A stretch of 64,000 bases of DNA, taken from positions 1 to 64,000 of the IMG/VR virus record IMGVR_UViG_3300032080_000001; one strand, 5' to 3'. The notes beneath the pieces were generated by a model that worked only from the letters and a program-made list of their open reading frames with translations, made no database searches and had not been told where the DNA came from. Positions 1 to 46,331 of the stretch are shown one piece after another. The stretch is from a virus. The first letter of the stretch is position 1; each line of letters opens with the position of its first letter. The translations under genes were made by a program, and so were the position numbers.

Positions 1-124
1 ACCGGTAGTCGCGCGGCGCTTACCGACAAACGCTCTCCGGTGACGCTGTCTCTCCTGAAATCATACAGGGCAGGTCTGCACCGCACCGTTCGACGGGGCG
101 CCCGCGACACCAAATGTACACGTT

Positions 125-152
125 GGGCCTGTCAGCTTCGGTTGACAGGCCC
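125..152 (+). terminator. Stem-loop with UUCG tetraloop overlapping the first promoter
   Basis: A 10-bp perfect inverted repeat (125-134 with 143-152) extends through a G-U and a C-G pair to a UUCG tetraloop, which is a very stable RNA hairpin. It is followed by CTTCGTCG rather than a T-run. Its 3' arm contains the TTGACA of the next promoter, so the hairpin may end transcription of an operon lying before the window while the same DNA starts the next one. Confidence 0.5.
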
Positions 153-513: not shown

Positions 514-1182
514 ATGGCGTTCGAGAAGCTGCGTGCCTCCCCGTGTTTCAAGGAGGCGCACGACAAGTTGGAAGCGGGTATCGCGGCCGAGAAGGTGGCC
601 GCCTGGGCGCAAGACGAGCGGAACTGCTACGACGGCATCAAGCGGGACTCCCTCGTCCGGGCGCTTTACCGCTACAAGAAGAGCGAGGTCCCCGTGACGG
701 CGGCGCAGATCGTCGCCTCAGCAGACCCGCATACCGGGAAGCCCGCGCTCACCGTCTGGAATCGTATCCAGGGCATGGAGCGCGGGCTGAACGAGCTGGA
801 GGAGCTGGAGAAGCTCTACATCCTCCAGCTCACGCGCATCAACCGAGGTGTGACCATCGAGGAGACCATCAACTTCACGAACAAGGATGTACGACGGGAC
901 GTGGAGTTGGCGAAGGACATCCTCACCACGATGACCGAACTCAAGATGAAGCTCGGCGTCTACAAGCAGGCCGACCACAACCTCAACATCACGGCGAGCG
1001 TCCAGAGTACGCACCACCAAGTCATCGAGAGTCTCGACCCCAGCTCTCGGAAGCAGTTGGGAGGGGTAGCCCGGACACTTCTGGAGCAGCTTACGAAGGC
1101 GCTGCCGCCCGCCGCTATTCCGGAAGGGATTCCGGCTGGGGGCAAGGTGGTGGAGGCGGACTACGAGCTGGTGGAGAAGTAG
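514..1182 (+). CDS. Possible small terminase subunit
   Basis: This 222-residue protein is mostly helical. The N-terminal 70 residues are rich in Lys/Arg and could hold a helix-turn-helix, the middle (about 85-150) reads as long helices, and the C-terminus is acidic. That arrangement and the position ahead of the large terminase suit a small terminase subunit, which recognises phage DNA and hands it to the large subunit. No diagnostic motif was seen, and a 2-kb gap containing other genes separates it from the large subunit, so it could be another DNA-binding protein. It abuts the preceding gene with a three-base gap. Confidence 0.4.
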   Translation: MAFEKLRASPCFKEAHDKLEAGIAAEKVAAWAQDERNCYDGIKRDSLVRALYRYKKSEVPVTAAQIVASADPHTGKPALTVWNRIQGMERGLNELEELEKLYILQLTRINRGVTIEETINFTNKDVRRDVELAKDILTTMTELKMKLGVYKQADHNLNITASVQSTHHQVIESLDPSSRKQLGGVARTLLEQLTKALPPAAIPEGIPAGGKVVEADYELVEK

Positions 1183-1212
1183 TCCCAAAACTCGCGGGGT
1201 AAGGCCAAACTT

Positions 1213-1230
1213 CTCCCGCGCTGGCGGGAG
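1213..1230 (+). terminator. Short hairpin after the 514-1182 gene
   Basis: CTCCCGC (1213-1219) pairs with GCGGGAG (1224-1230) around a four-base loop, 31 bases after the preceding stop codon. No T-run follows, so termination is uncertain. Confidence 0.3.
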
Positions 1231-1307
1231 TGATCGACCCCGTGCCCGCAGGGCCGGGTGATCGCGGCCAGCGGGAACCTCAAACGCCTGCGGGAGCAGC
1301 GGCGTCT

Positions 1308-1356
1308 CGTTGTTGTTTAGTACCTGTAGATTGATAGTATAGTACCTATATATTAA
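1308..1356. other. AT-rich tract, possible DNA unwinding element
   Basis: The tract contains TTGTTGTTTAG, TAGATTGATAGTATAG and CTATATATTAA and is strikingly AT-rich against its surroundings. It could be the unwinding element of an origin. It also holds -10-like words (TAGATT, TAGTAT, TATATT), so it could instead or additionally be the promoter for the gene at 1585. Confidence 0.4.
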
Positions 1357-1450
1357 GCGGGCCTTGGCAACTCTCGCTGACCCGAAAGTAAAGTTGTCCT
1401 AACTACCGTCGTAGCGAAGGTTTACGTGAGTTTCGGTGAACAGAACGACC

Positions 1451-1564
1451 TGGCCGGAAAATCGGCCACCTCCCGATGACCTGGCCGGAAAATCGGCCAG
1501 GAAGAAAAACCGAAAGGGCCGGAAAATCGGCCACCTCCGACGCACCCGGCCGGGAGACCGGCCA
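1451..1564. repeat. Four 18-bp palindromic repeats (iteron-like)
   Basis: Copies start at 1451, 1482, 1516 and 1547. The first two are TGGCCGGAAAATCGGCCA, the third differs in its first base, and the fourth is the diverged CGGCCGGGAGACCGGCCA. Each is a near-perfect inverted repeat around a short AT-rich centre. The 31-34 base spacing is about three helical turns, which would place bound proteins on one face of the DNA. The same palindrome recurs twice at 40513-40553. Confidence 0.75.
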
Positions 1565-1584
1565 CCCCACAGGAACGACGACCG

Positions 1585-2091
1585 ATGGACAACACGCCGC
1601 GTATTTATCTCGGAGGCCCGATTCACGGCCTCACCCAGGACCAGGCAAACGGCTGGAGGCAGCAGGCCGCTCACCTCCTCGCCCCGGAGTTCGGGGTGCT
1701 CGACCCGATGGAGAACAAAGTCATCATCGGTACCGACTACTCGCACTACACCGACGAAGAGCTGGTCGTGAAGGACCTGCTCTCCATCCAGCGTGCACGG
1801 GCGGTGCTGCGCTACACGCCCGGCCCCACGCACGGGTCGGACATGGAGACTTTCTTCGCCTCCCACAACCACGGCATTCCCGTCGTGACCTGGGGCCCCG
1901 GCCAGGGCGACCGCAGCAAGTTGTCGCTGTGGCTTCGGCGGTTCACCGTCAAGAACTTCGAGACCCTCGAAGAGGCTGTGGCCTACCTCAAGGGGTACTG
2001 GACGTACCCCGGCGACGGCCTGGCCTCAGTACCCGTCATCGACCACCAGAATCTCGACCTGTTTCGCCCCGTACACCGCCTTGCGGCCTAA
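1585..2091 (+). CDS. Nucleoside 2-deoxyribosyltransferase-like protein
   Basis: The 168-residue protein opens with a beta strand and the IYLGGPIHG loop, and later has PGPTHGSDMETFFA followed by a hydrophobic strand. This matches the Rossmann-like nucleoside 2-deoxyribosyltransferase superfamily, where the early Gly-rich loop binds the sugar and a Glu in the GxxxE-type helix is the nucleophile. Enzymes of this group cleave or exchange the base of (deoxy)nucleosides or nucleotides. A second, diverged relative lies at 61589. ATG 1585 follows GGAACGACGACCG and lies directly after the palindrome cluster. A role in nucleotide salvage, base modification or nucleotide-signal breakdown is possible; the substrate cannot be told. 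Confidence 0.65.
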   Translation: MDNTPRIYLGGPIHGLTQDQANGWRQQAAHLLAPEFGVLDPMENKVIIGTDYSHYTDEELVVKDLLSIQRARAVLRYTPGPTHGSDMETFFASHNHGIPVVTWGPGQGDRSKLSLWLRRFTVKNFETLEEAVAYLKGYWTYPGDGLASVPVIDHQNLDLFRPVHRLAA

Positions 2092-2106
2092 TCTGGAGAC
2101 ACGCAC

Positions 2107-2451
2107 ATGCCCCGTGGAGTGAAGAAGAAGGACCCGAACGCCCCGCTGCCGAGCACGCCCGAGGAGGCGCTGGCGGGCACCCCCACCGAGGACAAGGCCG
2201 AGGTGGCGCGCATCCTGGAGGCGAACGCCGCGCTCCAGGCGGAGCTGGCCGAGGCCAAGAAGGGAAGTGCTCACGCTGCCGCGCCCTCGGGTGCCGAGAC
2301 GCCTTCGTCCCATCCGGACGAGGAGGCGCTGGCTCCGTCTCTACAGGCCGTGATGGAGCGTATCCGCGCGTTCGGCCGCGACGGCTACCTGGGCCACCTG
2401 CGCGTGGCCGAGGCGGACCTGCGCCGCGTCATCGTGGACCTGTCCCGCTGA
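2107..2451 (+). CDS. Hypothetical protein with basic N-terminus and coiled-coil stretch
   Basis: The 114-residue product is not recognised. It starts with a Lys-rich segment (PRGVKKKD), passes through a Pro/Glu-rich linker, then has a short Ala/Glu/Leu helix that could form a coiled coil (about residues 38-58) and a second helical segment at the C-terminus. It follows the deoxyribosyltransferase-like gene by 15 bases with GGAGA before the ATG. It may be an accessory DNA-packaging or head protein, but nothing in it shows this. Confidence 0.6.
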   Translation: MPRGVKKKDPNAPLPSTPEEALAGTPTEDKAEVARILEANAALQAELAEAKKGSAHAAAPSGAETPSSHPDEEALAPSLQAVMERIRAFGRDGYLGHLRVAEADLRRVIVDLSR

Positions 2452-2472
2452 CGCGTGGGAGGATACCGGTAC

Positions 2473-2501
2473 TTGACCAGTACGGTCCGTACCGGTATCT
2501 T
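2473..2501 (+). promoter_or_regulatory. Promoter TTGACC-17-TATCTT
   Basis: TTGACC (2473-2478) and TATCTT (2496-2501) lie 17 bases apart and the spacer ends in ACCGG (motif 2491-2503). A second ACCGGTA motif sits at 2465-2477, overlapping the -35. It would drive the terminase operon from the gene at 2552. Confidence 0.65.
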
Positions 2502-2551
2502 ACTCGTACGACGAGACACGACTACTACCCCTACGACGACCGGAAGACACG

Positions 2552-2971
2552 ATGCACCGAGACACCCAGCGCGCGCTCGCCCTCATCAACAACCAGGGCA
2601 TCACGGAGCAGATGGCGAAGCGCCTCAACAGCCCCGTGCTGTACCGCGACCTGCCGAAGCAGCTCGCCGCCGCGAACGAGCCCGTGCGCCGGATGGTTTC
2701 GGCCATCGCCACGAACCTGACGCGCACCGACCTGTCGGTCGCCGCCTTCGTGGAGCTTCTCATCGAGAAGGGCGTGTTCACCCAGGACGAGTTCAACAAC
2801 AAGGAGGTCGAGGTGACGCAGCGCTTCGCGGAGGCCATGAGCCTCGCCCAGGAGCAGGCACAGGAGGAGGCCGGGGACAAGAAGGTCGAGCGCCTCGTGG
2901 AGCCCGTGGGGGTGCTGACCGAGGCGCCGGAGTCCGAGAGTGTCCCCCGGAGCCGCCTCGTGGAGGGATGA
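2552..2971 (+). CDS. Hypothetical protein upstream of the large terminase
   Basis: The 139-residue protein is not recognised. It is largely helical, with a Gln/Glu/Ala-rich helix at about 88-112, and ends in an acidic, Pro-containing tail. It is the first gene behind the promoter at 2473-2501 and overlaps the next gene by four bases (ATGA), so it is translationally coupled into the packaging operon. A small terminase or packaging accessory role is possible because this is the nearest sizeable gene to the large subunit. Confidence 0.6.
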   Translation: MHRDTQRALALINNQGITEQMAKRLNSPVLYRDLPKQLAAANEPVRRMVSAIATNLTRTDLSVAAFVELLIEKGVFTQDEFNNKEVEVTQRFAEAMSLAQEQAQEEAGDKKVERLVEPVGVLTEAPESESVPRSRLVEG

Positions 2972-3165
2972 TGCACTCTGCGATGGTCTATGTCGTGGGT
3001 GTGCTCCACGACACCACCTGGACCGTCGAGGGCGTCTACACGGACCCGAGAGAGGCCGAGGGCATGTGCCTGACGGCCTCTCACTTCGTTGGCCCGGTGT
3101 CGCTGAACACGCCGCTCCCCGAGAGCGTGCACGACTGGCCCGACCTGCTCTTCCCCGTTCCGTGA
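2968..3165 (+). CDS. Small hypothetical protein
   Basis: The 65-residue product begins with ATGATG, whose first ATG overlaps the preceding TGA, and stops two bases before the terminase ATG. The frame is open much further upstream, but the overlap and the GGAGGG at 2962-2967 fix the start here. The sequence has the look of a small beta-alpha fold with an unusual run of aromatic and acidic residues at its C-terminus. No family was recognised. Confidence 0.6.
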   Translation: MMHSAMVYVVGVLHDTTWTVEGVYTDPREAEGMCLTASHFVGPVSLNTPLPESVHDWPDLLFPVP

Positions 3166-3166
3166 C

Positions 3167-5212
3167 ATGACCCTCGACAGGCAGCTGGTAGGGCTACTGG
3201 ATGAGTTGCGCCGGAAGCTCGACCCCGTGGCACAGAAGCACCTCGAAGACCTCGTCAAGTTGACCTCCGGCCAGCCTGACGAGCTTTTGGCGTTGCTCCG
3301 AGACCTGGCGTCGTTCGACTTCAAGTGGACGCCGGTGGGCATGGAGGAATTCGTCCTCTCGCCGGAGTACATGGGGCTCGACGGCACGCGTGGTCGCATC
3401 TTCCCCCGCCTGCTGGACGACCTCATCGAGTTGTTCGAGGACCCTCTCGGCTACGAGCAGGCTGTGATGATGGGCGGCATCGGGTGGGGCAAGTCCACGC
3501 TCTCCGAAGTTGCCCTCTCCCGGATGGTTTACGAGACCTCCTGCCTTGTGAACCCACAGAAGGCGTACGGCCTCATGGACGGGTCCACCATCGCGTTCAT
3601 CAACGCGTCGGTGAACTTGAAGCAGGCCGAGAAGGTGGTGTTCGAGGGTCTCAAGAACAAGCTCGGCGCCAGTCCTTACTTCAAGGAAAAATTTCCCTTC
3701 GAGAAGGACCTCAAGAAGGAGATGCGCTTCCCCGGTAACCTGCTCATCATGCCTGTGGCGGGCTCGGAGCAGGGCACCGTAGGGTACAACGTGCTCGGCG
3801 GTGTACTGGACGAGGTGAACTTCTGGCAGATTACCGAGAAGTCGAAGCAGAACCGGGGACAGGAGTTCGACCAGGCGCGGCACGTCTACGACATGCTCAT
3901 CCGCCGTATGCAGTCCCGCTTCAACGTGGCCGGTAAGCTGCCCGGCGTGCTGCTCCAGGTCTCGTCGTCTAAATACCCGGACGATTTTACCGAGGAGCGT
4001 GCGCGTGAGGTGGAGCAGGCGATGGCCGACCACCTTGCGGACCCGAAGACGAACGCGCACCCGAAGACGCTGGTGCGCCGGTACTCGACGTGGTCCACGA
4101 AGGACCGCGCGGTGTTCCTGCCCGAGGAGTTCTACCTGTACCGGGGCACGACTTCCGACAAGCCCGCCATCTCCACGAATCGCGATGACTTCGCGGACAA
4201 GGACCCGGAGATGGTGGTGCCGGTGCCGATGGACTTCTACGCGTCATTCAAGCAGGACATCCTCGGGTCACTGCGCGACCTGGGGGGGTTCCCGACGCTC
4301 TCCATTGCCCCGTTCTTCACACAGAAGGACCGGCTGATGGAGGCCATTGAGCGCGGGCGGCGAGCGGGGTTGGTGCACCCGTATACGCTGGATGAGACGA
4401 CGCTCGAAGACGGCGCGTACTTTCTTCGAGAGCGCGTTAAGTTCGACCCGACGAAGTGGTACTACGCGCACGTGGACTTGGCGCTGACGAAGGACCGGGC
4501 GGGCGTGGCCGTCGCCCACGTCGCCGGGTGGAAGGAAGTGCAGCGCGTACGAAACAACGTGCTGGTGACGGAGATGGAACCCATCGTTGTGGTGGACTTC
4601 ATGCTCCGCATCACGCCGCCGGAGCAGGGCGAAATCCAAGTGGCCGAGGTGCGTGCGCTGCTCCTCGAACTGCGCTCGTACGGCTGCAACCTGCGTAAGG
4701 TCACGTACGACCAGTACCAGTCAGCCGAGTCGCGCCAGGCGTTCGAGCGCATGGGCATCGAATCCGACAAGTTCTCGGTCGATACCACGATGGACGCGTA
4801 CCACGCGCTGGCCGAGGCCATCCTGGAGGGTCGCCTCGTCATGTATGATTACGCGCCGTTCGTGGAGGAGTTCGTTCGGCTGGAGAGGAAGACGACCGGG
4901 CGGGGCGAGAAGGTGGACCACCCGCCGAAGGGCTCGAAGGACGTGTCCGATGCCGCTGCGGGTGCCGTCTATCACGCCACGATGGCGCGCCACACCGCGC
5001 AGTTGGACCCGAGCCTGGGCGAGACGACAGACTCCCCGGTGGTGGCTGGCGTGACGCTGTGGGCAACGAAGGACGGACGCACCCTCGAACCCACCGTGGA
5101 CACGGCGGGTCGGCTGCTCCCCGGTAAGAAGCTCCGCACGTTGGACGACGTGATGTGGGGCGAGGTGGCGGAGGATGAGGGGGACGAGGACTTCGTCGTT
5201 GGCTTTGCTTGA
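3167..5212 (+). CDS. terL: Terminase large subunit (DNA packaging ATPase-nuclease)
   Basis: This is the motor that cuts concatemeric DNA and pumps it into the prohead. The 681-residue protein has a Walker A loop GGIGWGKST at about residues 103-111 and a Walker B strand ending in the acidic pair D215-E216 (VLGGVLDE). The C-terminal RNase H-like nuclease shows a strand with D437 (HVDLALTKDRAG) and a later D595 in KDVSDAAAGAVYH. Length and layout fit the family. It starts one base after the preceding stop. It acts on the portal encoded next. Confidence 0.93.
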   Translation: MTLDRQLVGLLDELRRKLDPVAQKHLEDLVKLTSGQPDELLALLRDLASFDFKWTPVGMEEFVLSPEYMGLDGTRGRIFPRLLDDLIELFEDPLGYEQAVMMGGIGWGKSTLSEVALSRMVYETSCLVNPQKAYGLMDGSTIAFINASVNLKQAEKVVFEGLKNKLGASPYFKEKFPFEKDLKKEMRFPGNLLIMPVAGSEQGTVGYNVLGGVLDEVNFWQITEKSKQNRGQEFDQARHVYDMLIRRMQSRFNVAGKLPGVLLQVSSSKYPDDFTEERAREVEQAMADHLADPKTNAHPKTLVRRYSTWSTKDRAVFLPEEFYLYRGTTSDKPAISTNRDDFADKDPEMVVPVPMDFYASFKQDILGSLRDLGGFPTLSIAPFFTQKDRLMEAIERGRRAGLVHPYTLDETTLEDGAYFLRERVKFDPTKWYYAHVDLALTKDRAGVAVAHVAGWKEVQRVRNNVLVTEMEPIVVVDFMLRITPPEQGEIQVAEVRALLLELRSYGCNLRKVTYDQYQSAESRQAFERMGIESDKFSVDTTMDAYHALAEAILEGRLVMYDYAPFVEEFVRLERKTTGRGEKVDHPPKGSKDVSDAAAGAVYHATMARHTAQLDPSLGETTDSPVVAGVTLWATKDGRTLEPTVDTAGRLLPGKKLRTLDDVMWGEVAEDEGDEDFVVGFA

Positions 5213-6864: not shown

Positions 6865-8418
6865 ATGGCAATCAAGTGGACGAAGTGCCTGGAGCGCGAG
6901 GTCATTCGCCTCAAGGAGGACGAGGGGATGTCGTGGGACGAGGTGGCGGACGCCCTCGGCTTCGACACCAAGCACCAGGCCCGCATCCGCTACAACCGCC
7001 TCAAGGGCGGGCACGCGTTCGACGTGCCCGAGGGTGAGTGCGGCAACACCGGCGCCCCGCAGGAGGCCCTGAGCAGCACGGCGGCCGAGGCGGAGGACAT
7101 GACCTACGAAATCCAGGCGGCGTTCATCCAGAACGACTACTCGTTCGACGGGGAGACGTACCACTTCCCCGTGGCGAACAAGGTGGTGAAGGTGCCGCGC
7201 GAGACCTGGGAGCGTATCATCGCCTTGTACTCGGGCGAGGGCGCGAACGAGGTGCAGGCGGCCATCGCGCGCACCATCGGGATGCACAAGAAGGTGCTGG
7301 AGGCGTGCCTCCGCGCCTACGGCATGTACAAAACGAACGCCCCAGTGACGCGCGAAGCCCTGGCGGAGGCGCGGACGGAGCAGGACCTGGAGCCGCTGTA
7401 CGAGAAGGCCATCGAGGTCCGCGAGGGGCAGTTCATCAAGCGCCTGAACGAGCGGAAGCTGCGGCGCTTGGAGTCGGAGAACCGCCGCCTGAACGAGCGG
7501 ATGGCCGACCACGAGGGGCTCAAGGGCGAACTGCGCGACACCGTGGCCGCTCTCGTGGCCGACTTCCCAGCGTTCTCCCCGCTGGTGCGCGTGGAGCGCG
7601 AGCCCGGCAGCACCGTGCTCGCGATGAAGTTCGACGCCCACTTCGGCATGAACCACTTCGGGGGCTGGGGCGGCCGGTTCACGACGGACACCGCCGCGCG
7701 CTATTTCCGGCAGTACGTCGCGGAGCTGGTGGCGTACCTGGAGGAGAATCCCGCCGTCAGCAACGCGGTGCTGGTGCTGGGCGGTGATATCTTCCACGCC
7801 ATGCTCCAGCAGACGAAGAAGGGCACGCCCCTGGAGCGAGACCGGCCCGACCGGCTGGTGTTCCGCGCGGCCTTCGCCGCCATCCGCGACGGCGTACGCG
7901 CCCTGCTGCGCACCGGCGCGCGGGTGGACCTGCGGGTCATTCCCGGAAACCACGACCACATCTTCGCGGAACTGCTGGAGGAGACGCTGGCGGCACACTT
8001 CGACGGCGTGCCCGGCGTGACCGTGCCGAACGAGTGGGCGAAGCGTAAGTACGTGGTCGTCGGGGACGCAATGCACGTCTTCGACCACGGCGAGGGCTTC
8101 GAGCGCCTGGCCTGGCAGCAGTTTTCGCAGGCGGAACTCATCGCCCGCATGACCGGCCGTCGCGACTTCTTCCGCGTGCAGCGCATCTACCTCTATGTGG
8201 GGCACACCCACCACCTGGAGATGAAGGCGCACGCCGCCCATCTCGAAATCGTGCGCGTGCCCCACGCGGCGCATACGAACGAGTACGAGGAGGGCAAGAT
8301 GCACGCGGGCGAGCCGCAGGGCGTTTTCTTCCGACTCGACGCGGCCGGTCGTATGAAGACGATGGAGCGCGTGTACTTCGCGGACGACGCGGAGGACGAG
8401 GGCGCCCTGGCGGCGTGA
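6865..8418 (+). CDS. Metallophosphoesterase with N-terminal helix-turn-helix
   Basis: The 517-residue protein has three parts. Residues 1-50 look like a helix-turn-helix or SANT-like domain (MSWDEVADALGFDTKHQARIR), with another helical DNA-binding-like segment at about 125-160. Residues about 165-225 form a charged coiled coil. The C-terminal half is a calcineurin-like phosphoesterase: D257-x-H259, GGD308, GNH363-D364-H365 and GH447-T-H449 are the metal-binding motifs. Such enzymes cleave phosphodiesters or phosphomonoesters; family members include SbcD/Mre11 nucleases. It lies between portal and protease, an odd place for an enzyme, so it may act during packaging or be carried in the head. 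The substrate is unknown. Confidence 0.8.
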   Translation: MAIKWTKCLEREVIRLKEDEGMSWDEVADALGFDTKHQARIRYNRLKGGHAFDVPEGECGNTGAPQEALSSTAAEAEDMTYEIQAAFIQNDYSFDGETYHFPVANKVVKVPRETWERIIALYSGEGANEVQAAIARTIGMHKKVLEACLRAYGMYKTNAPVTREALAEARTEQDLEPLYEKAIEVREGQFIKRLNERKLRRLESENRRLNERMADHEGLKGELRDTVAALVADFPAFSPLVRVEREPGSTVLAMKFDAHFGMNHFGGWGGRFTTDTAARYFRQYVAELVAYLEENPAVSNAVLVLGGDIFHAMLQQTKKGTPLERDRPDRLVFRAAFAAIRDGVRALLRTGARVDLRVIPGNHDHIFAELLEETLAAHFDGVPGVTVPNEWAKRKYVVVGDAMHVFDHGEGFERLAWQQFSQAELIARMTGRRDFFRVQRIYLYVGHTHHLEMKAHAAHLEIVRVPHAAHTNEYEEGKMHAGEPQGVFFRLDAAGRMKTMERVYFADDAEDEGALAA

Positions 8419-17987: not shown

Positions 17988-20900
17988 ATGAACCAGCTTA
18001 ATCTCGGGATTACAATCGCCCTCCGTGACGCCTTCTCGTTCCGCGCGAAGGCCATCGAGAGTGCGTTCCGGAACCTGGATTCGCGGGCTTATGGTGCAGC
18101 CCGCAGTATCCGGGAGTCCGTAGGCAACATCGAGCTTGGCTTTGCCACCGCCTTCCGCAGCATTGCGGCGGGCGCAGCCGTGTTGTCGGTCCTGGTGTAC
18201 CCGACACGGCAGGCTCTCGCCTTCGGCAAGGCCCTGAGCGAGGTCGCGACCATCGCGGACGAGGCGAACAGCAACATCGCCAAGCTCCGGGACACCATCA
18301 TCGACCAGTCCCTCCGGTACCCCACGTCCCTCGTCAACCAGACGCAGGCGGCGTACGAGGCGGTGTCGGCGGGCTTCCTGCGCACGGTGGACGCCGCGTA
18401 CATCGCGGAGGAGGCCACCAAGACGGCGGTCACGACAATGGCCACGACCGCGACGACCCTCAAGGGCACCGTCGCGCTGATGAACTCGTACAACATGAGC
18501 GCGGACCAGGCGGGCCGCGTGTCTGACCTGCTCTTCCAGACGGTGCGCTTCGGCGTGGTCCGCATGGAGGAGTTGGCGCACAATATCGGCATGGTGTCGG
18601 CGGCGGCGGCCACGTCGGGCGAGTCCATCGAGAACTTGCTCGGCACGTACGCCGGGTTCACGCTCGGCGGCCTGTCGCCCGAGCAGAGCGCGCAGTACAG
18701 CCGCCAGCTGTACTTGTCCATCATCAAGCCGACGAAGCAGGCCGTTGGCGAGGCGGCCAAGTACGGTATCACGCTCAACAAGGAGTACTTCCTGTCGAAG
18801 GGCGGGCTGTTCGGCTCGCTGATCGACATGGCCACGCGGTCCGGCGCACTTCGCCGCGATGGCACGCTCGGGGACCCCGCCAGCTTCTTCCGGATGCTCT
18901 CGGGTCGTCAGGCGGCGGCCGGTGCGTCGGTGCTGCTCCAGAAGCGGTCCTTCATCGCCAACATCCTTGAGCAGATGAAGGTGGACGAGGTCTTCGATGA
19001 CTTCGGCGTCAAGATGACGCACCGCGAGTACGCGCTCCAGCAGCGCGCGCAGTCGCTGGACTACCAGTTGGACCAGTTGAAGTCCACGGTCGGCACGCTC
19101 GCGGCCGTGCTGGGCGAGGCGACGGCGAACGTCATCTCGCCCATCGCGCGCGCAGTGAACGCCATCCTCGGGCCCGTGACGCGCCTGGTGAACGCCTACC
19201 CAGTCATCGGCAAGGTCATCACGGGTCAGGTGTTTGCCTGGGGCGCGGCGCTCATGTGGTGGGGCGCCATCCAGATGCAGAACATCAAGCGGAGTTGGAC
19301 GTTCCTCCGCCTGCTCGCGCGCTTCCGCCGCGAGTACACCATGTTGTTCGGTCTGCGCATCCCCTTGTCGCAGCTCGGGTGGGTGCTTTCGGGCACCGTG
19401 ATGCAGTTGGTGCTGGGGGCGGTGCTCATCCACCGCGCGTGGAAGAAGAACGTGGGCGGGCTCGCGGACACCGTGCGCCACCTCGTTCTGGTCTTCCGCG
19501 CCTTGACTGAGAATTTCCGCACGCAGTACGGCGTGTGGGGCAAGATGTCGGTCGAGCTGAACAACCAGTTGAAGAGTGAGGGCATCCTCACGACGTTCAA
19601 GCTGTGGTTCGCCTGGCTCACCCGCTTCAAGTACTTCGGGAAGGGCTTCGGCACCGGCATGGGCCGCTGGTTCGATGACCTGGGGGACGGCATCACCAGC
19701 GTGGTCACGGCCCTCGGCAGACTGGTGGGGTTCGCGACCGGGCCGATAGGCACGTCCATCAAGGGGTTCTTCGCGGGCCTCAACCCGAAGACGAACACCA
19801 TCCACGAGTGGCGCGTCGCCGGGGAGCGTCTCGGTCGGCTAGTGGGCTTCCTGCTGACCATTTCGCTTCTTACGAAGACGTGGACCTCGACGCTGCTGAC
19901 GGCGCGCATCTTGGGCTACGCCCTGCTGGCGCCGTTCAAGATGCTCAAGTGGTTGTTCTGGTCCGGGCCGAAGGCGTTCCTGCGGAACATGCGGGACGCC
20001 ATCAGCGGCATCAAGCGGGCGGCGCTGAACCTGTGGGGCCTGCTCGCGCGCGTCTTCCGGCTTCTCGCGCGCCCGTTCCGTCGCACCGCGTCTCCGGACG
20101 CGCAGGGGCCCTCCACGGCACTGACGCGTCGCACGGGCGTGGTGCTGCGCGACGAAGGTAAGGAGCGGGCGTCCAGGGCAGGGAAGAGGGACTGCTGCGG
20201 CCCCATGCTGCGGCTGCTGACCCGTATCGCGAACAACACCGGCGCCATGCGCAGCATGATGGCGCGGACGGGCGGGCACGGACTCGGGGGTGGTCGCGGA
20301 GGTAGTCGCGGGGGCCGCCGGGGGCGGCGCGGGGCGGTGGAGATGGTCCACGTCGGCAACGGCGTATACGCGCCCGCAGGGGAGCGTAACCCGCACGCTG
20401 TCGGGACGCGCCCGAACATGGGGTGGTCGTACGGGCGGCGGGACTCTACGGTTTACGAGGGGCGCGCTCCGGAGGAGCCGCGTGCCGCTATCCCGGCGCG
20501 CACGGGCGGCCCCCGCCTGCTCGGCCCGGTGGCCCAGCCGGGTCCCCGCAACGTGCAACGCCCGCGCACGCTGCGGCTGTCGCACCAGGGTGGGGTGTGG
20601 GTGAACCCGCCCGAGAGTCCCACGCTTACGTCGGGTGGCAAGCGCTCGCGGAAGCGGGGCGTGTGGCTGCGTAACTTCTTCTCCAATGCGGCGTCGGCGG
20701 CACCCGAAGAGTCGTTCCAGCCGAGGGGACTACTCTCGGCTGGTGGCCCGGCTCGCCGCGTCGGGCGCTTCGCGCGCCTCGGCGGGCGGATGGGGCGCGT
20801 CGGACGCGGCCTGGGCGGCGCAGCGCGCGGCATTGGCGGCGCTGCGATGGGGGTCGGGGACATGATGACCGGCGGTGCCGTGAGCGGCATCGTCAACACC

Positions 20901-38566: not shown

Positions 38567-39178
38567 GTGCGACCCCGGCCGGTGCGGGGGTCAGACGGCT
38601 CCGTGCTTTCTACCCCCGACTCGGCTAACTTTTCAATGCTGTCGTTTCCTTTCTTCAAGCTCGGCTACTTCACGGACAACGTTCCGGCGAAGGCCAGTCT
38701 GGCAACCGGCGCTGTCTTCATCGAGCGCCTGTGTGCCTATTCTCCTGATGCGTGCGCCTTCCTCGGTGGCATCCACCAGTCCGTCAAGGCGCTCCTGCTG
38801 CTGATGGCCCTCGACCTGCTGACGGGGGTCATGGCCGCCCGTGCGGAGGGGCAGCGCATCCAGAGCCGCCGATTCGGCCTGGGCGCCCAGCGTAAGTTCG
38901 GGATGCTGCTGGTGATTTACGCGGCCCACCTGCTTGACGGCGTGTTCGGCACGGGGAGTGCCATTTTCGTCGGGGCGACGTGGTGGTACATCGCGACCGA
39001 GACCATCTCGTTCTACGAGAACGCGGACCGCATGGGCGTGCCGATGCCGCCGGGGTTGAAGCGGCTGATGGAGACCGTGCTCCAGAAGGCGAATGACACG
39101 CTCGGGGCGCTGACGCCTACCTCGGCCAAGCCTGCGTCTGAGGTGGTGAGACCGGCGGAGAACGCGCCGGACGCGTAA
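38567..39178 (+). CDS. Phage holin (holin-4 type)
   Basis: The up to 203-residue protein has the phage holin-4 pattern: a membrane helix KALLLLMALDLLTGVMAA, a basic loop EGQRIQSRRFGLGAQRK, a second hydrophobic helix FGMLLVIYAAHLLDGVFG and a third around ATWWYIATETISFYENADRMGVPMP. Holins of this type form the inner membrane hole that releases endolysin. GTG 38567, GTG 38603 and ATG 38636 are all in frame; the first has GAGG 11 bases upstream and is used here, but ATG 38636 would give a shorter N-terminus of usual type. The C-terminal tail is soluble and acidic. Confidence 0.75.
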   Translation: MRPRPVRGSDGSVLSTPDSANFSMLSFPFFKLGYFTDNVPAKASLATGAVFIERLCAYSPDACAFLGGIHQSVKALLLLMALDLLTGVMAARAEGQRIQSRRFGLGAQRKFGMLLVIYAAHLLDGVFGTGSAIFVGATWWYIATETISFYENADRMGVPMPPGLKRLMETVLQKANDTLGALTPTSAKPASEVVRPAENAPDA

Positions 39179-40007: not shown

Positions 40008-41249
40008 GTGGCGCAAGCTGCACTTTCGGTCGGGGTGTCCAACCGAGACACCCCGGCTGACGCCACGTACCAGGCGTTCTTTGGTACGCGGTCCGGGCCG
40101 TTCGTCCCGATGTTGTCAGGGCTGCTCCGCGCACTTGGAGCAGCTTCTCTTTCGGACGGCGCTACCGGTACACTACTGTTATTGTACAGTGAGTACGTCC
40201 CGATGTCGCTCCGGAACGGGCACCTCGGGGACGATGGCTGGGTGATGGTGTGGCCGTCAAAGGAGCGGCTGGCCGAGGAGACGGGGAGGCGGCGCTCGAC
40301 GGTGAAGGAGCACCTTGCGGCGCTCGAAGCCCTCGGGGCTATCCGCCGCTCCAGAGAGCGGGTGAACGGACGCACGGGGGTGCTGTGGGTGCGCCCCACC
40401 CCCGCCCTCCTCGCGCACCTGGAGGCGAGGCCGGAGGTGCAGGCCACCCTGCGTCAGCGATTCAAGAGGCGCTACGACCCGCAGGTGACGCCCATCGAGT
40501 CGAGGTTCTTCCTGGCCGAAAATTCGGCCAGCACCTGGCCGGAAAACCGGCCACAACGGAAGAGTACTACGACCGAAGAAGAAGTAAACAGCAACACGCC
40601 GCAGGGGCGCCGCGCAGAGGACCGGACGCCGCTGGCGGAAATGGCCTGGCCGGAGGGCTGGGACGAGGGGCGGTTCGCCCGCTGGTTCGAGTACACGCAT
40701 GACGAAACGGTAGCCGACGTGAAGAGCATCTACGCGAGAATGGCCGAACTGCGGCAGACGCAGGACGCGGCCGAGGACGAGAGCGCCGAGGCCCGCGAAA
40801 AGCGGTTGGCGAAGCCGAAGTCGCAGCGGATGAACGGGGGCAGGAAGCAGGCGCCCAAGGTCGCGCGCACCGACACAGCGTCCGCTCTGATGCGGGACTT
40901 TAAGGCGCTGGTCACGACGAACTTCCCCAACGCGTACAACCCGCCGAACGACGTGAAGGCGCTTTCGCAGATGCGCATGCTCCTCGACCGGTACGGCGAG
41001 GCCGAGGTCCGGCGGCTCATGGAGTTCGTCGCTGACCCGACAACGTGGGGGCGTATCAAGACCAAGTGGCCGAAAATCGAGCTGTTTCAGCCCACTCCTG
41101 GTTGGCTGCTGGCCTGGAGCGAGTCGCTACTCCAGTGGATGAAGAGCGGCGCCCCCGATGCGGGGCAGGCTACCGGTCCGAAGCGCAGCGGCGGAGCCGA
41201 GGTTTACGACCGCGCTACGACCGACGCGAAGGGTCGCTCGACGTTCTGA
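40008..41249 (+). CDS. Replication initiator-like winged-helix protein
   Basis: The 413-residue protein has an N-terminal winged-helix region (GWVMVWPSKERLAEETGRRRSTVKEHLAALEALGAIRRSRERVNGRTGVLWV, about 84-135) as in replication and Rep proteins that recognise origins. The middle is Ser/Thr/Glu-rich, and a C-terminal helical domain follows from about 295. Two palindromes of the origin type are embedded at 40513-40553, encoding AENSASTWPENRP. This resembles lambda O, whose gene contains the origin repeats. GTG 40008 follows GGGAGAGG. A promoter-like motif (40164-40176) also lies inside the gene. The upstream frame around 1451 codes the same WPENRP words by chance of the repeat. Confidence 0.65.
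   Translation: MAQAALSVGVSNRDTPADATYQAFFGTRSGPFVPMLSGLLRALGAASLSDGATGTLLLLYSEYVPMSLRNGHLGDDGWVMVWPSKERLAEETGRRRSTVKEHLAALEALGAIRRSRERVNGRTGVLWVRPTPALLAHLEARPEVQATLRQRFKRRYDPQVTPIESRFFLAENSASTWPENRPQRKSTTTEEEVNSNTPQGRRAEDRTPLAEMAWPEGWDEGRFARWFEYTHDETVADVKSIYARMAELRQTQDAAEDESAEAREKRLAKPKSQRMNGGRKQAPKVARTDTASALMRDFKALVTTNFPNAYNPPNDVKALSQMRMLLDRYGEAEVRRLMEFVADPTTWGRIKTKWPKIELFQPTPGWLLAWSESLLQWMKSGAPDAGQATGPKRSGGAEVYDRATTDAKGRSTF
40513..40553. repeat. Two 18-bp palindromes inside the initiator gene
   Basis: TGGCCGAAAATTCGGCCA (40513-40530) and TGGCCGGAAAACCGGCCA (40536-40553) are inverted repeats of the same consensus, TGGCCGRAAAWYCGGCCA, as the four copies at 1451-1564. The start-to-start spacing is 23 bases. 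Their occurrence within the candidate initiator gene suggests autoregulation or an internal origin. Confidence 0.78.
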
Positions 41250-41328: not shown

Positions 41329-42888
41329 ATGACGCAGACGTTTCGAGAGGGGGACCAAGTGGCGGTCCAAGGTGCGCTGCCCCGCGAAGAGGCTAAAGTC
41401 GTTCGTGTGTTTGGTGACTTCGCAGATTTGCCGCCTACCCGTGCAATTGTGCAGTACGCGTCGGGGCGGCGCGGCGTGCGGTCCCTTAGTGAACTCAAGC
41501 CGCTACACCCAGTGACACCTGCCGAGGAGAACACACCCCGCGTGACTACCGTAGATAGCGAGAACGGACCTTTTAAGCTCGCCTTCCCGCAGATGAAGCC
41601 GGGCATGCGCGTGCAAGAGGTGAACCTGCACGGCCAGACGATGCACGGCCGCATTCTTGGGAAGATAAATGCGTCCAAGGAGTTGCTGGTCCTTTTCGAC
41701 GGCAACACGCAGCCTTTAACGGTGCCTGCGGGGGCGGTCTCCGTACTCCCGGCGGACCCGTTGGACCAGATTCACCCGATGCTGGCGAAGAACCTGGACG
41801 ACTACAAGAGCCTCTCTCTCGACCAGTTGCTCCAGGATGACTCGTGGGGCGCCGAGGAGAAGTACGACGGCGAACGGACCATCCTCGCGGTGAACCTGAC
41901 CGGCCAGTCCTTCCGCGCAACGACGCGCGTAGTCGGTAAGAATACTGGCACGCTCGGAGAGAACACGGCTCGTTTGCCGCATCTCAAAGGGCTATTCCCG
42001 GTGCCCGAGGAGGGCACTACGGTCTTCGATGGCGAGCTGATGCACGAGAACGGCTTTCAAGCTCTCCGGAGCATCATGGGGAGCGACCCTGCGCTCGCTG
42101 TCGAGAAGCAGCGCGACCTGGGCTTCGTCGGCGTGCGTCTGTTCGACATCCTCTGGTTTGGCGGCAACGACCTGCGGGGGATGGAGTTCAAACAGCGGCG
42201 GGTGGTGCTGGAGACATGGTTCCGGGAGTCGTGGACGTGGCTCCAGGCGAACTACCCGATGACGCACGCCCTGTTCGCGGAGCACGTGTCCCTTTCGCCA
42301 CTCAAGTGGACGGCGGACGAGAAGCAGCATCTCCTTGAAACGGTGCTCGACGCGGGAGGTGAGGGCATAATGCTCAAGCACGCCCGTGGGCGGTACACCG
42401 ATACGACGGTCTCCGGCCAGCGGTCGGCGGACCTGCTCAAGGTGAAGCCGTTCGCGGAGACCGATGTCATCGTGGTGGGTTTCGAGGAAGGGAAGGGGCA
42501 GTTCAACACCGACAAGTACGGCGCCATTCACGTCGCGCAGTGGGTACCGCGCGACCGGGTGACGGCGGAGATGGCGAAGAACGAGTACGTGGCAGCGAAC
42601 GGTTTCGGCCTGCACAACAACGTCAGCGCACTCTACGACGACGCTTCCCGGTCCGGCCTGTTCCGGACGCACATGCTGGTTTACATGGGCACCACCGGCG
42701 GCTTCACGCAGGAGCAGGAGCAGGCGTTCCGCGCGGCGCCGGGGGATTTCATCGGCAAGGCGATGGAGGTCTCCTACCAGGAGAACGGCCGCTGGCCGAA
42801 GACGGGGCGACTCCGCCACTCCCACTTCGTGCGGATGCGCGATGACAAGAGCACCGATGACTGCACGTATGAGCCGAACACTGCGTGA
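41329..42888 (+). CDS. ATP-dependent DNA ligase with N-terminal SH3-like extension
   Basis: The 519-residue protein seals nicks in replicated or repaired DNA. The ligase motifs are motif I with K178 (EEKYDGERT), motif III VFDGEL, motif IIIa VRLFDILW, motif IV GGEGIMLKHA and motif V LLKVKPFAETDVIVVGF. The C-terminal 90 residues look like an OB-fold. The first about 145 residues are an extra region of two beta-rich SH3-like units (FREGDQVAVQGALP and KPGMRVQEVNLHGQTMHGRI) not usual in phage ligases. The transcript seems leaderless. It overlaps the next gene by 20 bases. Confidence 0.88.
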   Translation: MTQTFREGDQVAVQGALPREEAKVVRVFGDFADLPPTRAIVQYASGRRGVRSLSELKPLHPVTPAEENTPRVTTVDSENGPFKLAFPQMKPGMRVQEVNLHGQTMHGRILGKINASKELLVLFDGNTQPLTVPAGAVSVLPADPLDQIHPMLAKNLDDYKSLSLDQLLQDDSWGAEEKYDGERTILAVNLTGQSFRATTRVVGKNTGTLGENTARLPHLKGLFPVPEEGTTVFDGELMHENGFQALRSIMGSDPALAVEKQRDLGFVGVRLFDILWFGGNDLRGMEFKQRRVVLETWFRESWTWLQANYPMTHALFAEHVSLSPLKWTADEKQHLLETVLDAGGEGIMLKHARGRYTDTTVSGQRSADLLKVKPFAETDVIVVGFEEGKGQFNTDKYGAIHVAQWVPRDRVTAEMAKNEYVAANGFGLHNNVSALYDDASRSGLFRTHMLVYMGTTGGFTQEQEQAFRAAPGDFIGKAMEVSYQENGRWPKTGRLRHSHFVRMRDDKSTDDCTYEPNTA

Positions 42889-43528
42889 CCTGACCCCGGC
42901 CGACCTCCAGCGGGCGAACATCCCCGAGAGGTACTGGAGCGCGACGTTCAAGGACGTACCGAAGGGGGCCGAGCACTGGGGCCCGGTGAAGACCTACCTG
43001 ACGGACCTGGAGTCCTTCCTCGACAACGGGGAGGGACTCTACCTCTGGTCCGTCGAGAACGGAACCGGCAAGACGGCGCTCGCGACGCTCATCCTGCGCC
43101 GCGCGCTGCGGCTGGGGTACACCGGCTACTACACGCGGTCCGAGGCGGCGAAGCGGGCGATGCAGGTGCCTGAGCGCGTGCTATTCGATGAGGCGACCAC
43201 GGTGGAGCAGCGTCTCCGCGCGGTGGACGTGCTGGTGTTGGACGACTTCGGCAAGGAGTACCGCTCGCAGAACGGCAGTATGTTCACCGAGAGCGCCATC
43301 GAGGACCTGGTGCGCGAACGCGTCCAGCGGCGCAAGGTGACGCTCTACACGGCGAACATTCCGCCGCGCAAGCTCGCGGATAACGGGCTGTTCACGGTGG
43401 ACCTCGCGGACGTACTTCGCGAGAGCGTGGGACACATCGAAGTGGTCGGCCCCGACCGGGGCGGGAAGTTGTGGCGCCGGGACGCCGCCACGGACCTCAT
43501 GGACCGCCTGTACGACGGGGATTCGTAA
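42869..43528 (+). CDS. DnaC-like helicase loader ATPase
   Basis: The 219-residue protein is an AAA+ ATPase that would load the replicative helicase. Walker A is WSVENGTGKTALATL and Walker B is VLVLDDFGKEYRS; LADVLRESVGHIEVVGPDRG is the sensor region. ATG 42869 is chosen because it follows the start pattern MSRTLRDLTPADL; ATG 42842 and 42857 are upstream in-frame options. It precedes the DnaB-like helicase gene by four bases, a standard pairing. The end of the gene contains TTCGTAAGAA (43522-43531). Confidence 0.8.
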   Translation: MSRTLRDLTPADLQRANIPERYWSATFKDVPKGAEHWGPVKTYLTDLESFLDNGEGLYLWSVENGTGKTALATLILRRALRLGYTGYYTRSEAAKRAMQVPERVLFDEATTVEQRLRAVDVLVLDDFGKEYRSQNGSMFTESAIEDLVRERVQRRKVTLYTANIPPRKLADNGLFTVDLADVLRESVGHIEVVGPDRGGKLWRRDAATDLMDRLYDGDS

Positions 43529-43532
43529 GAAC

Positions 43533-44813
43533 ATGGATTACGGCAAGTTGGCCATTGCGAGGGCGCTGACCGACCAGAGTGTCGGAGCGTTCCTCGACCG
43601 GGACGTGCGCCCGGATATGATGCCGACCCCGGAGGACGGGGCGGTGCTCAAGTTCATTCTCGACTTCTTCCGGCAGCACCAGGCGGTGCCCGCGCCCCGG
43701 ACGGTCGAGACGCAGTTCCCCGGCTACGCTCTCGGGTACGCGCCGGACCCCGCGACGGCGTACGTGGACGCCATCGTGAAGCAGCACGTCCGCGTGCGGG
43801 CGCAGGAGGAGATTCTTCACGACGTGAAGCTCTTCCAGCACGGAGACCCACTCCAGGTCGCAGCGGGACTCCAGACGAAGCTCGCGCGGCTCTCCTCTCT
43901 CACGGAGGGGAACCGGGTTAAGCTGTACAACGAGCACGCGAGCGGGCGCTTCGCGCGGTACTTGAACCGCAAGAATCGCGTGGGCCTGCTCGGTATTCCG
44001 ACCCCGTGGTCGTCGCTGGACGACCTGACGCAGGGGTGGCTTCCCGAGATGTACGTCGGCGTGGCGGCGCGGCCCAAGACAGGTAAGACGTTCTGGATGC
44101 TCCGTGTGGCGTTGGCCGCGTGGCAGGCGGGGTACAAGGTCCTGTTCGTCAACAAGGAGTTGCCGGACGAGATGATGGAGAACCGCTCCGACGCCATCGG
44201 GGCGAAGCTCCCGTATGAGAAGCTCCGCACCGGCGCCCTCACGATGTTCGAGGAGCAGCGGCTGGAGCAGTACCTCAAGGACCTTGAGGCGAACCCGCCG
44301 TCCGACTGGTGGTGGCTGCACGACGTGTCGAACGTCTCGGCCATCCGGGCGAAGGTGGAGGAGTACAAGCCGGACATCGTGTTCATCGACGGCGCGTACC
44401 TGCTCGAAGACGAGATGGGCGGCCGGACGGAACGTGAGCAGCAGAAGAACCTGTCGCGAAACATCAAGCGCCTCGCACAGAAGACGAAGCTGCCGGTCAT
44501 CATTTCCATCCAGTTGAACCGGGACGGAGACCAGAAGAAGAGCAAGACGCAGTTGACCATGTCGAACGTGTACGGCTCTGACGCCTTCGCGCAGGACGTG
44601 GACCTGCTCATCGGCCTGGAGCAGTCGGACGACCAGCGGATGAACCGACAGCTCCAGATTACTCCGCTTGCCGTCCGCGAGGCCGAGGGCAAGCCCATCA
44701 TCGTGGGCTGGGACTTCGACACGATGGAGTCGCCGGACTACGGCTATCCGTCGAGCGTGGCCGGGATGGCGAACGACAAGGATGACGACGACGTGTTGAC
44801 CTTCAAGGACTGA
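43533..44813 (+). CDS. DnaB-like replicative helicase
   Basis: The 426-residue protein matches the DnaB C-terminal ATPase: Walker A AARPKTGKTFWML, Walker B PDIVFIDGAYLL, followed by NLSRNIKRLAQKTKLPVIISIQLNRDGD, VYGSDAFAQDVDLLIGLEQ as the later conserved blocks. The N-terminal 100 residues look like the helical DnaB N-domain. It would unwind DNA at the phage fork with the loader encoded before it. It starts four bases after the loader stop within ATGGATTACGG. Confidence 0.85.
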   Translation: MDYGKLAIARALTDQSVGAFLDRDVRPDMMPTPEDGAVLKFILDFFRQHQAVPAPRTVETQFPGYALGYAPDPATAYVDAIVKQHVRVRAQEEILHDVKLFQHGDPLQVAAGLQTKLARLSSLTEGNRVKLYNEHASGRFARYLNRKNRVGLLGIPTPWSSLDDLTQGWLPEMYVGVAARPKTGKTFWMLRVALAAWQAGYKVLFVNKELPDEMMENRSDAIGAKLPYEKLRTGALTMFEEQRLEQYLKDLEANPPSDWWWLHDVSNVSAIRAKVEEYKPDIVFIDGAYLLEDEMGGRTEREQQKNLSRNIKRLAQKTKLPVIISIQLNRDGDQKKSKTQLTMSNVYGSDAFAQDVDLLIGLEQSDDQRMNRQLQITPLAVREAEGKPIIVGWDFDTMESPDYGYPSSVAGMANDKDDDDVLTFKD

Positions 44814-44823
44814 GGGTTAGATT
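44796..44823 (+). promoter_or_regulatory. Promoter-like TTGACC-16-TAGATT before a structured RNA
   Basis: TTGACC (44796-44801) at the end of the helicase gene and TAGATT (44818-44823) are 16 bases apart. The expected start, about 44830, is just before the long paired arm at 44833. It could make a separate small RNA. Confidence 0.45.
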
Positions 44824-44829
44824 CGTTTT

Positions 44830-44923
44830 ATCAAGGCGCCGTGCAGAAAGGCTCCTGCCGTTGAGAGGCGGCGGGGCGGTCCTCCCCAGGTCCGCGAAGT
44901 GGCCTTACCCTGTACGGCGCTTT
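44830..44923 (+). ncRNA. Candidate structured RNA with 14-bp closing stem
   Basis: Arm 44833-44846 pairs with 44910-44923 over 14 positions (two G-U pairs), enclosing about 60 bases. Inside, AAGGC near 44848 pairs with GCCTT near 44903, and smaller hairpins are possible (GCCG/CGGC and GCGG/CCGC around a GGGG/CCCC stem). The layout suggests a multi-branch fold. A promoter-like TTGACC-16-TAGATT lies just upstream, and the next promoter begins at 44934. It may be a small RNA, an attenuator or a 3' end of the helicase operon. No family was recognised. Confidence 0.35.
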
Positions 44924-44933
44924 GCTGTACCCC

Positions 44934-44962
44934 TTGACAAATGTACATGACTCTATTAACTT
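44934..44962 (+). promoter_or_regulatory. Promoter TTGACA-17-TAACTT
   Basis: TTGACA (44934-44939), spacer ending TGACTCTAT, TAACTT (44957-44962). The sequence from here to the next ATG is a diverged copy of 39265-39340, including the CACGTTG and GGTACGG words and CTTACGA. Confidence 0.7.
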
Positions 44963-45006
44963 ACTGGCACGTTGCTGGTACGGTGTGCTTACGAACGGAG
45001 ACAAGC

Positions 45007-45237
45007 ATGTTGGTAGACGCTAAGGGATATCTCACCCGCGAAGGGTGGGAGGCTTTCGGGTTCGAGGCGCACGGGAAAGTGCCGGGCTTCTACTACCACC
45101 GCGAACTCGGCCTGGAGTTCGACATGAACGCCGCGCGGAGCCCCGCAGGCTTTGTGAAGTGGGTGTTCGTAATGGGCAAGGCCGAAGGGAGCCGGGAGAA
45201 GCTCCGTCAGATACAGCGCATGCTGGGGGTTCTATGA
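45007..45237 (+). CDS. Small hypothetical protein before the primase
   Basis: The 76-residue product is basic with two aromatic clusters (REGWEAFGFEAHG, PGFYYHRELGLEF) and a C-terminal helix. ATG 45007 is used because GGAGACAAGC precedes it; the longer upstream frame lies within the promoter. It overlaps the primase ATG by four bases and is part of the replication operon. Function not recognised. Confidence 0.55.
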   Translation: MLVDAKGYLTREGWEAFGFEAHGKVPGFYYHRELGLEFDMNAARSPAGFVKWVFVMGKAEGSREKLRQIQRMLGVL

Positions 45238-46331
45238 ACGCGGACAGCATCGTCTATGTACTGGAGGAGCTGGGCTCCCCGCGCGTGAAGAACCTCGGCA
45301 AGAACGTGCAGGCGTCCTGTCCGCTGGCTCCGTGGAACCACGGGTCGGGGAGTGACGCCTCCATGAAGCTCGGCGTGCTCGTCACGCAGGGGATGAGCCC
45401 GGCGAACTGCTTCTACCCCGGCTGCTTCCACGGCACGCTGCTGGAGTTGGTGGACGCCGTCGCGACGAAGAAAATCACAGACGGAGACTGGGAACTCGGC
45501 GGCGACGAGGTCTCTAACCTCAAGGCATTCGTAATGCTCGCGGAGGAGACCGACGAGGTGGACCTCTCCGGCGGTCGCGGCGCGGCCGTCGTGGAGCCCA
45601 TCCCACAGGACGTACTCGCCCTGGTCGGCGGCGGCTCCCCCTACTGGACGGAGCGGGGCGTCGGCCTGGTGACGGCGGACTTGTGGAAGCTCGGGGAGGG
45701 GAAGGGCCGTGCGTTCATCCCGCTCATCGACCGTCAGGGACAGGTCGTCGCCGTGAAGGGCCGCCTGCTGCCGGGCGAGGAGTACGACGAAATGCCCGGC
45801 ACGGGGAAGGCGCGCTCGGCCAAGTACCGGCTCTTCCCGGCGAGCTTCCCCTCCGGCGACTACCTTGTCGGGGAGCACCTGCTCACGAAGCCGGTGGACT
45901 TCCTGGTGGTTGTGGAGTCGGAGGCGGACGCCATCCTGCTGAACGAGTGGTTCCTCGACCCTGCGTTCCGTGACGCGTTCCCGTTCGGGCAGGCCACGGA
46001 CGGTGCGCTCGCGGTGTCCACGGCGGGCGGCGAGTTCACTGCGCGGCAGGTGCAGAAGATGGTCGAGGCCCTGACGGCGCAGGGTGAGGTCGCGGTCGGC
46101 ATGGACGCCGACCACGCTGGGCGACTCGCCACGCGGAAACTGGTGGACGCGCTGCGGAAGCGTGTACCCCGTGTGTCGGAAATCGAGTGGGAGCGGAAGG
46201 ACCCGTCCGATGACGACGACGGGAACGGCGGGAAGCTCTCCCGCGATGTGGTCAAGGCTGACGCGCGGCGGTCCATCGAGACGCGCATGGACTGGTTCCA
46301 GAAACGCATCACCGCCGCGCTCCGTACTTGA
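45234..46331 (+). CDS. DNA primase (DnaG-type, zinc and TOPRIM)
   Basis: The 365-residue protein makes RNA primers. The N-terminus has cysteine/histidine residues (SCPLAPWNH... NCFYPGCFHG) that resemble a zinc-binding element, then a TOPRIM-type region: DFLVVVESEADAILLNEW with the catalytic Glu, GMDADHAG with the acidic pair, and KDPSDDDD as the last acidic motif. The frame is open upstream, but ATG 45234 fits the operon overlap. It is shorter than typical DnaG because no helicase-binding domain is visible. Confidence 0.8.
   Translation: MNADSIVYVLEELGSPRVKNLGKNVQASCPLAPWNHGSGSDASMKLGVLVTQGMSPANCFYPGCFHGTLLELVDAVATKKITDGDWELGGDEVSNLKAFVMLAEETDEVDLSGGRGAAVVEPIPQDVLALVGGGSPYWTERGVGLVTADLWKLGEGKGRAFIPLIDRQGQVVAVKGRLLPGEEYDEMPGTGKARSAKYRLFPASFPSGDYLVGEHLLTKPVDFLVVVESEADAILLNEWFLDPAFRDAFPFGQATDGALAVSTAGGEFTARQVQKMVEALTAQGEVAVGMDADHAGRLATRKLVDALRKRVPRVSEIEWERKDPSDDDDGNGGKLSRDVVKADARRSIETRMDWFQKRITAALRT

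Follow-up and report, generated by a model that had tools for sequence, protein, structure and literature searches.

The genome of an uncultured 124-kb phage appears to carry two sets of iterons for its own replication initiator. One set, at 40.5 kb, is within the initiator gene and likely forms the primary origin. The other set lies in a non-coding segment at positions 1183-1584 and probably serves as a late origin of the SPP1 oriR kind, as a fork barrier, or as both. Judged from its sequence, 1183-1584 is very probably a second place where the phage's own initiator grips the genome.

Genome and Gene Context

The window is the whole stretch of DNA that was analysed, i.e. positions 1 to 64,000 of an IMG/VR record of 123,873 bases. 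The record begins and ends with the same 127 bases (window positions 1-127 and L160:19747-19873), from which a circle of 123,746 bp was computed here; the 127-base terminal repeat is probably an assembler overlap. Because the record closes to a circle, coordinate 1 of the window is arbitrary. The genome has a GC content of 66% and encodes a tail sheath, a T4-type portal, an integrase and a replication gene set.

The gene at positions 514-1182 (+ strand) occupies the terminase-small-subunit (terS) position: relatives of it are found directly upstream of TerL in L052, L068, L082, L085 and L253/L254. Family searches gave no match for its product. The non-coding segment follows, and between it and the terminase large subunit gene (terL, positions 3167-5212, + strand, phrog_2) are three small + strand genes (1585-3165) at positions 1585-2091 (deoxyribosyltransferase-like), 2107-2451 and 2455-3165. 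The window's terL is uninterrupted; the terL sequences of L068, L253, L082 and L078 are interrupted by about 1 kb near residue 105-120, in the Walker A region, and that of L068 is interrupted at two further places. These interruptions are probable introns or inteins.

A tyrosine-type integrase is encoded at L160:18194-19504 and is followed by an apparent 5' half of tRNA-Arg(CCT) at L160 about 19541-19585, a candidate attP (integrase and tRNA half together, about 122.2-123.6 kb of the record). A search of GTDB contigs for an exact match to the tRNA half gave none. The phage also encodes a tmRNA with the predicted tag ATRNDVVAVNAIPAYAQA, a tRNA-Lys and a tRNA-Leu (record positions 77689-78085, 79596-79668 and 82095-82179, respectively).

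The Non-coding Array

An AT-rich tract is present at about positions 1307-1356, close to where the first-pass annotation had placed one (about 1308-1356). Nowhere in the 123.9-kb record is the AT content higher over 30, 40, 50 or 100 bp, and nearest-neighbour stability over 40 and 100 bp is also at its lowest here. By these properties the tract is a candidate DNA-unwinding element, or a promoter.

About 95 bp from this tract begins an array of four 18-bp palindromes spaced 31, 34 and 31 bp apart, all given on the + strand. Iterons 1 and 2, at positions 1451-1468 and 1482-1499, are identical (TGGCCGGAAAATCGGCCA). Iteron 3, at positions 1516-1533 (GGGCCGGAAAATCGGCCA), is without the outer T, and in the divergent iteron 4, at positions 1547-1564 (CGGCCGGGAGACCGGCCA), both the outer base and the centre are altered. 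The earlier description of four near-perfect 18-bp palindromes at 31-34 bp spacing thus holds, except that the outer arms of sites 3 and 4 are imperfect. The window contains seven matches to the 16-bp core at three or fewer mismatches, where 0.8 are expected, and no shuffle reached seven. All 12 arm positions are matched at four sites in the closed genome and at none in 20 order-3 shuffles. A chance origin of the palindromes was rejected, as the site counts are far above those of the shuffles.

Sites 3-4 are 81% identical to sites 1-2, which has the appearance of a 65-bp duplication; the equal spacing of the array is therefore partly inherited. The cumulative GC-skew has its minimum at 2.7 kb, and this was discarded as origin evidence because the skew climbs across a genome that is coded mostly on one strand.

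The Candidate Initiator Gene and its Iterons

The open reading frame at positions 40008-41249 (+ strand) encodes a candidate initiator, an O-like winged-helix replication protein (phrog_270, E 2e-10). It is the sole phrog_270 match in the record. The product also matches phrog_1032, 428, 391, 345 and 678 (replication-initiation/O-like PHROGs), and Pfam HTH_36 and RP-C, both above cut-off. Downstream on the + strand (within 42842-46331) are genes for a DnaC-like helicase loader (42842-43528), a DnaB-like helicase (43533-44813) and a primase (45045-46331); DNA polymerase and UvsX-like genes are also found downstream. No close relatives of the initiator were found in IMG/VR, cultured phages or GTDB genomes, where the remaining matches are weak winged-helix ones with E-values up to 5. 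The predicted structure of the protein had a mean pLDDT of 41.6 and was therefore left unused.

The palindrome occurs twice in this gene, as had been noted before. Iteron A (TGGCCGAAAATTCGGCCA, positions 40513-40530, + strand) is directly behind the winged-helix codons, and iteron B (TGGCCGGAAAACCGGCCA, positions 40536-40553, + strand) is 23 bp downstream of A in a different reading frame. The difference in frame indicates that the DNA, not the protein, is under selection. The flank at positions 40554-40600 (+ strand) is purine-rich and relatively AT-rich (51% AT), and the best 46-bp window near the in-gene iterons has an AT content at the 99th percentile of the genome.

A matrix was built from the two in-gene sites alone and run over the closed 123,746-bp genome. 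It gave exactly three further matches, at positions 1451, 1482 and 1516, i.e. iterons 1 to 3 of the array; iteron 4 is below the matrix threshold. The first-pass annotation had connected the palindromes with the winged-helix gene at 40 kb, and this connection is strongly supported, the gene being of the O-like/phrog_270 replication-initiator type.

The array is 39 kb from the initiator gene, between the terS-position gene and terL. This location invites the reading that the terminase small subunit binds the array as a pac/cos site at which packaging starts, since in two related phages an array stands directly 3' of the terS-position gene. However, the same motif is present in the initiator gene 39 kb away, the L052 version is inside the initiator genes of ten other phages, and the array is missing from relatives with the same terS/terL order. 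The motif goes with replication genes and is not tied to the terminase; the packaging reading fails and is very improbable.

The Related Locus in L052

L052 is a relative whose TerL and portal are 59% and 57% identical to those of the window phage, with the terS-position gene in the same order. Between this gene and terL come an AT-rich tract (positions 6914-6957), where the AT content of the locus over 40 bp is highest, then a conserved block, and, about 80 bp from the tract, three palindromes that are unlike the window's in sequence. These are GGGTGGCAAATTTGTCACCC and two variants of it, at spacings of 32 and 31 bp. The conserved segment corresponds to positions 1319-1404 of the window (+ strand) and includes the AT tract and the block TGACCCG..G.AAA..TGTCC. 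Its local alignment score of 38 was reached by none of 500 dinucleotide shuffles. No counterpart of the three small genes at 1585-3165 was found in L052, and an O-like initiator is absent from its 23.9-kb contig. The pattern of the leader block has 13 matches in IMG/VR besides the L052 contig, none with a comparable array and none encoding a relative of TerL, the portal, the terS-position gene or the initiator.

The L052 locus bears on two further explanations. One is that the 40.5-kb pair is the only origin and the array a passive remnant, copied from that pair or from another phage. The duplicated appearance of the array and its divergent fourth site would suit such a remnant, but L052 keeps the AT tract, the conserved block and the array in place despite a differing palindrome sequence, and this explanation is improbable. 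The other is that the palindromes act in RNA, as hairpins or terminators of the 1585 gene's leader. A + strand hairpin of 6-7 pairs with an AAAA loop can form from the first palindromes; however, the region has no + strand terminator-like sites, and the conserved leader has no Rfam match and folds no better than shuffles (minimum free energy z-score 0.6 in the window, i.e. not below the shuffles, and a weak -1.1 in L052). In addition, the third L052 palindrome is in the opposite orientation, so that the + strand has A-C mismatches where G-U would be expected; this is easier to reconcile with a site bound as double-stranded DNA than with an RNA hairpin. With these results the hairpin explanation fails and is extremely improbable.

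Iterons in Other O-like Genes

IMG/VR was scanned for the L052 palindrome as a sequence pattern. Clustered cases, i.e. open frames of 150 codons or more that hold at least two related palindromes near each other, were picked before the family scan, so the initiator outcome was not selected for. Leaving aside L052 and a contig in which the sites are dispersed, clusters of L052-type palindromes were found in ten contigs. The frames that hold them are of replication-initiator type in every case; PHROGs identify nine, and the remaining one (L221) is identified by the Pfam domains DnaD_N and HTH_36. With the matrix matches, the in-gene iterons of other O-like phages and the 10/10 contigs with L052-type clusters taken together, the palindromes of the window are, judged from sequence, almost certainly initiator iterons. 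The exact window palindrome has 43 matches across IMG/VR, all single and scattered, and none clustered.

In IMGVR_UViG_3300043499_000086 (G012; L177, L199, L206, L213, L228), about 40 copies of GGGTGACANNNNTGTCACCC are scattered across 52.8 kb. These resemble a stoperator-like or parS-like regulon whose palindrome is nearly that of the L052 iterons. Short arrays of similar palindromes are also found 3' of portal genes in other phages (L125:7906-7960, L131:7576-7630 and L079:11474-11540), with a 27- or 33-bp period.

Six cultured O-like genes, those of Vibrio phages 1.054.O, PVA1, pYD38-B and 381E49-1, Caulobacter phage Sansa and Salmonella phage SI5, have in-gene repeats after the winged helix. 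These repeats are about 18-23 bp long, with a spacing of 17-24 bp. Two more distant TerL and terS relatives, G022 and G019, have private palindromes inside O-like genes, with 22-bp and 33-43-bp spacing.

A second array was not found in the whole genomes of lambda and five of the cultured O-like phages (SI5 left out), in the ten IMG/VR O-like records (several of which are fragments), or in the available sequence of G022 and G019. It is likewise absent from other examined relatives that share the terS/terL order. As yet only the window phage and L052 have been seen to carry the non-coding array, and its absence from the other O-like phages examined indicates that it is not a general need.

The first-pass annotation had proposed 1183-1584 as a replication origin. 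This is partly supported: lambda and all other O-like phages examined keep their iterons inside the initiator gene, and the window phage has its own in-gene pair (40513-40553). The canonical lambda-type origin is more likely this pair, on the placement of its sequence, and 1183-1584 is better called a second, non-coding array, with SPP1 oriR as its nearest described counterpart.

Proposed Function of the Two Iteron Sets

In the proposed mechanism, dimers of the O-like winged-helix initiator would bind the palindromes at both sets. The in-gene iterons, at the location of lambda's origin, may serve as the primary origin. Initiator bound to the non-coding array would open the AT tract and lead to a late start of replication, and/or would stall incoming forks and thereby lead to recombination-driven concatemer synthesis for packaging. 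Initiator binding, strand opening, initiation, fork stalling and timing are inferred from the sequence layout. A point against a two-site reading is the iteron spacing, which is 31-34 bp in the intergenic array vs 23 bp in the gene.

The array may instead bind the initiator without starting replication, either by titration or handcuffing (copy control) or as an operator for a downstream late-gene promoter. The array has the same sites without lambda's tight AT-tract junction and is upstream of a rightward gene run, and the AT tract could be a promoter. Ectopic copies of the lambda origin are reported to block lambda growth (PMC4488673). However, no sigma-70-like promoter was found at the AT tract (the host's promoter type may differ). 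Moreover, no other DNA of the genome is less stable than this tract, which is conserved along with the array. Titration or an operator function is rather unlikely, and a late origin and/or fork barrier is preferred.

It is tentatively suggested that some large phages form a sublineage in which a second origin or fork trap, as a dedicated module, keeps its place between terS and terL while the sequence of its iterons is exchanged together with the initiator. Such a module could couple the mode of replication to the packaging genes, and palindrome-binding O-type initiators might then represent interchangeable specificities. With site/initiator pairs of two specificities at one locus, initiator-iteron recognition could be read from sequence.

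Comparison with Lambda and SPP1

In lambda, O dimers bind the iterons and the adjoining AT-rich DNA is opened (PMC5043065, PMC7466680). The lambda iterons are annotated at positions 39034-39118 inside O, with spacing of 20, 24 and 23 bp. The segment 40513-40600 of the window phage resembles this arrangement: the gene belongs to the initiator family, and 18-19-bp inverted-repeat iterons, often with an AAAA centre, are behind the DNA-binding domain, with the 23-bp spacing of the pair inside lambda's 20-24 bp range. There are, however, only two in-gene iterons, compared with four in lambda, and the distant non-coding array (1451-1564), which is outside the initiator gene, is an addition. The AT tract adjoins the iterons in lambda, whereas the two are 80-95 bp apart at the window and L052 arrays. 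The window phage has a DnaC-like loader and its own DnaB-like helicase, unlike lambda, which uses P with the host DnaB. The O-like phages of Vibrio, Caulobacter and Salmonella share the repeats of about 18-23 bp in the initiator gene after the winged helix, but the five whole genomes scanned (the same Vibrio phages and Sansa) have no second array.

The two-array layout is known from SPP1 but was found in none of the lambda-type phages examined; in the literature searched, SPP1 was the sole two-origin phage of this kind found. SPP1 gp38 binds repeats in its own gene 38 (oriL) and in a late-region segment (oriR). Both have an AT-rich element, that of oriR being an AT-rich DNA-unwinding element. 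In SPP1 the run of late genes is broken by oriR and three accompanying moron genes, and fork stalling at gp38-bound oriR has been proposed as the trigger of the switch to concatemer synthesis (PMC6316719, PMC3485210).

The differences between the two phages are that the SPP1 sites are described as direct repeats and those of the window phage are palindromes, and that SPP1 is a 44-kb siphovirus whereas the window phage has 124 kb, a tail sheath, a T4-type portal and an integrase. The likeness is in the layout. In both, one initiator has two site arrays, shared between the initiator gene and a distant non-coding segment of the late region beside an AT-rich tract, and three small extra genes accompany SPP1 oriR and the window array and break the late gene order. 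A second, unrelated-looking lineage with the SPP1 layout would make the proposed theta-to-sigma switch testable as a general strategy.
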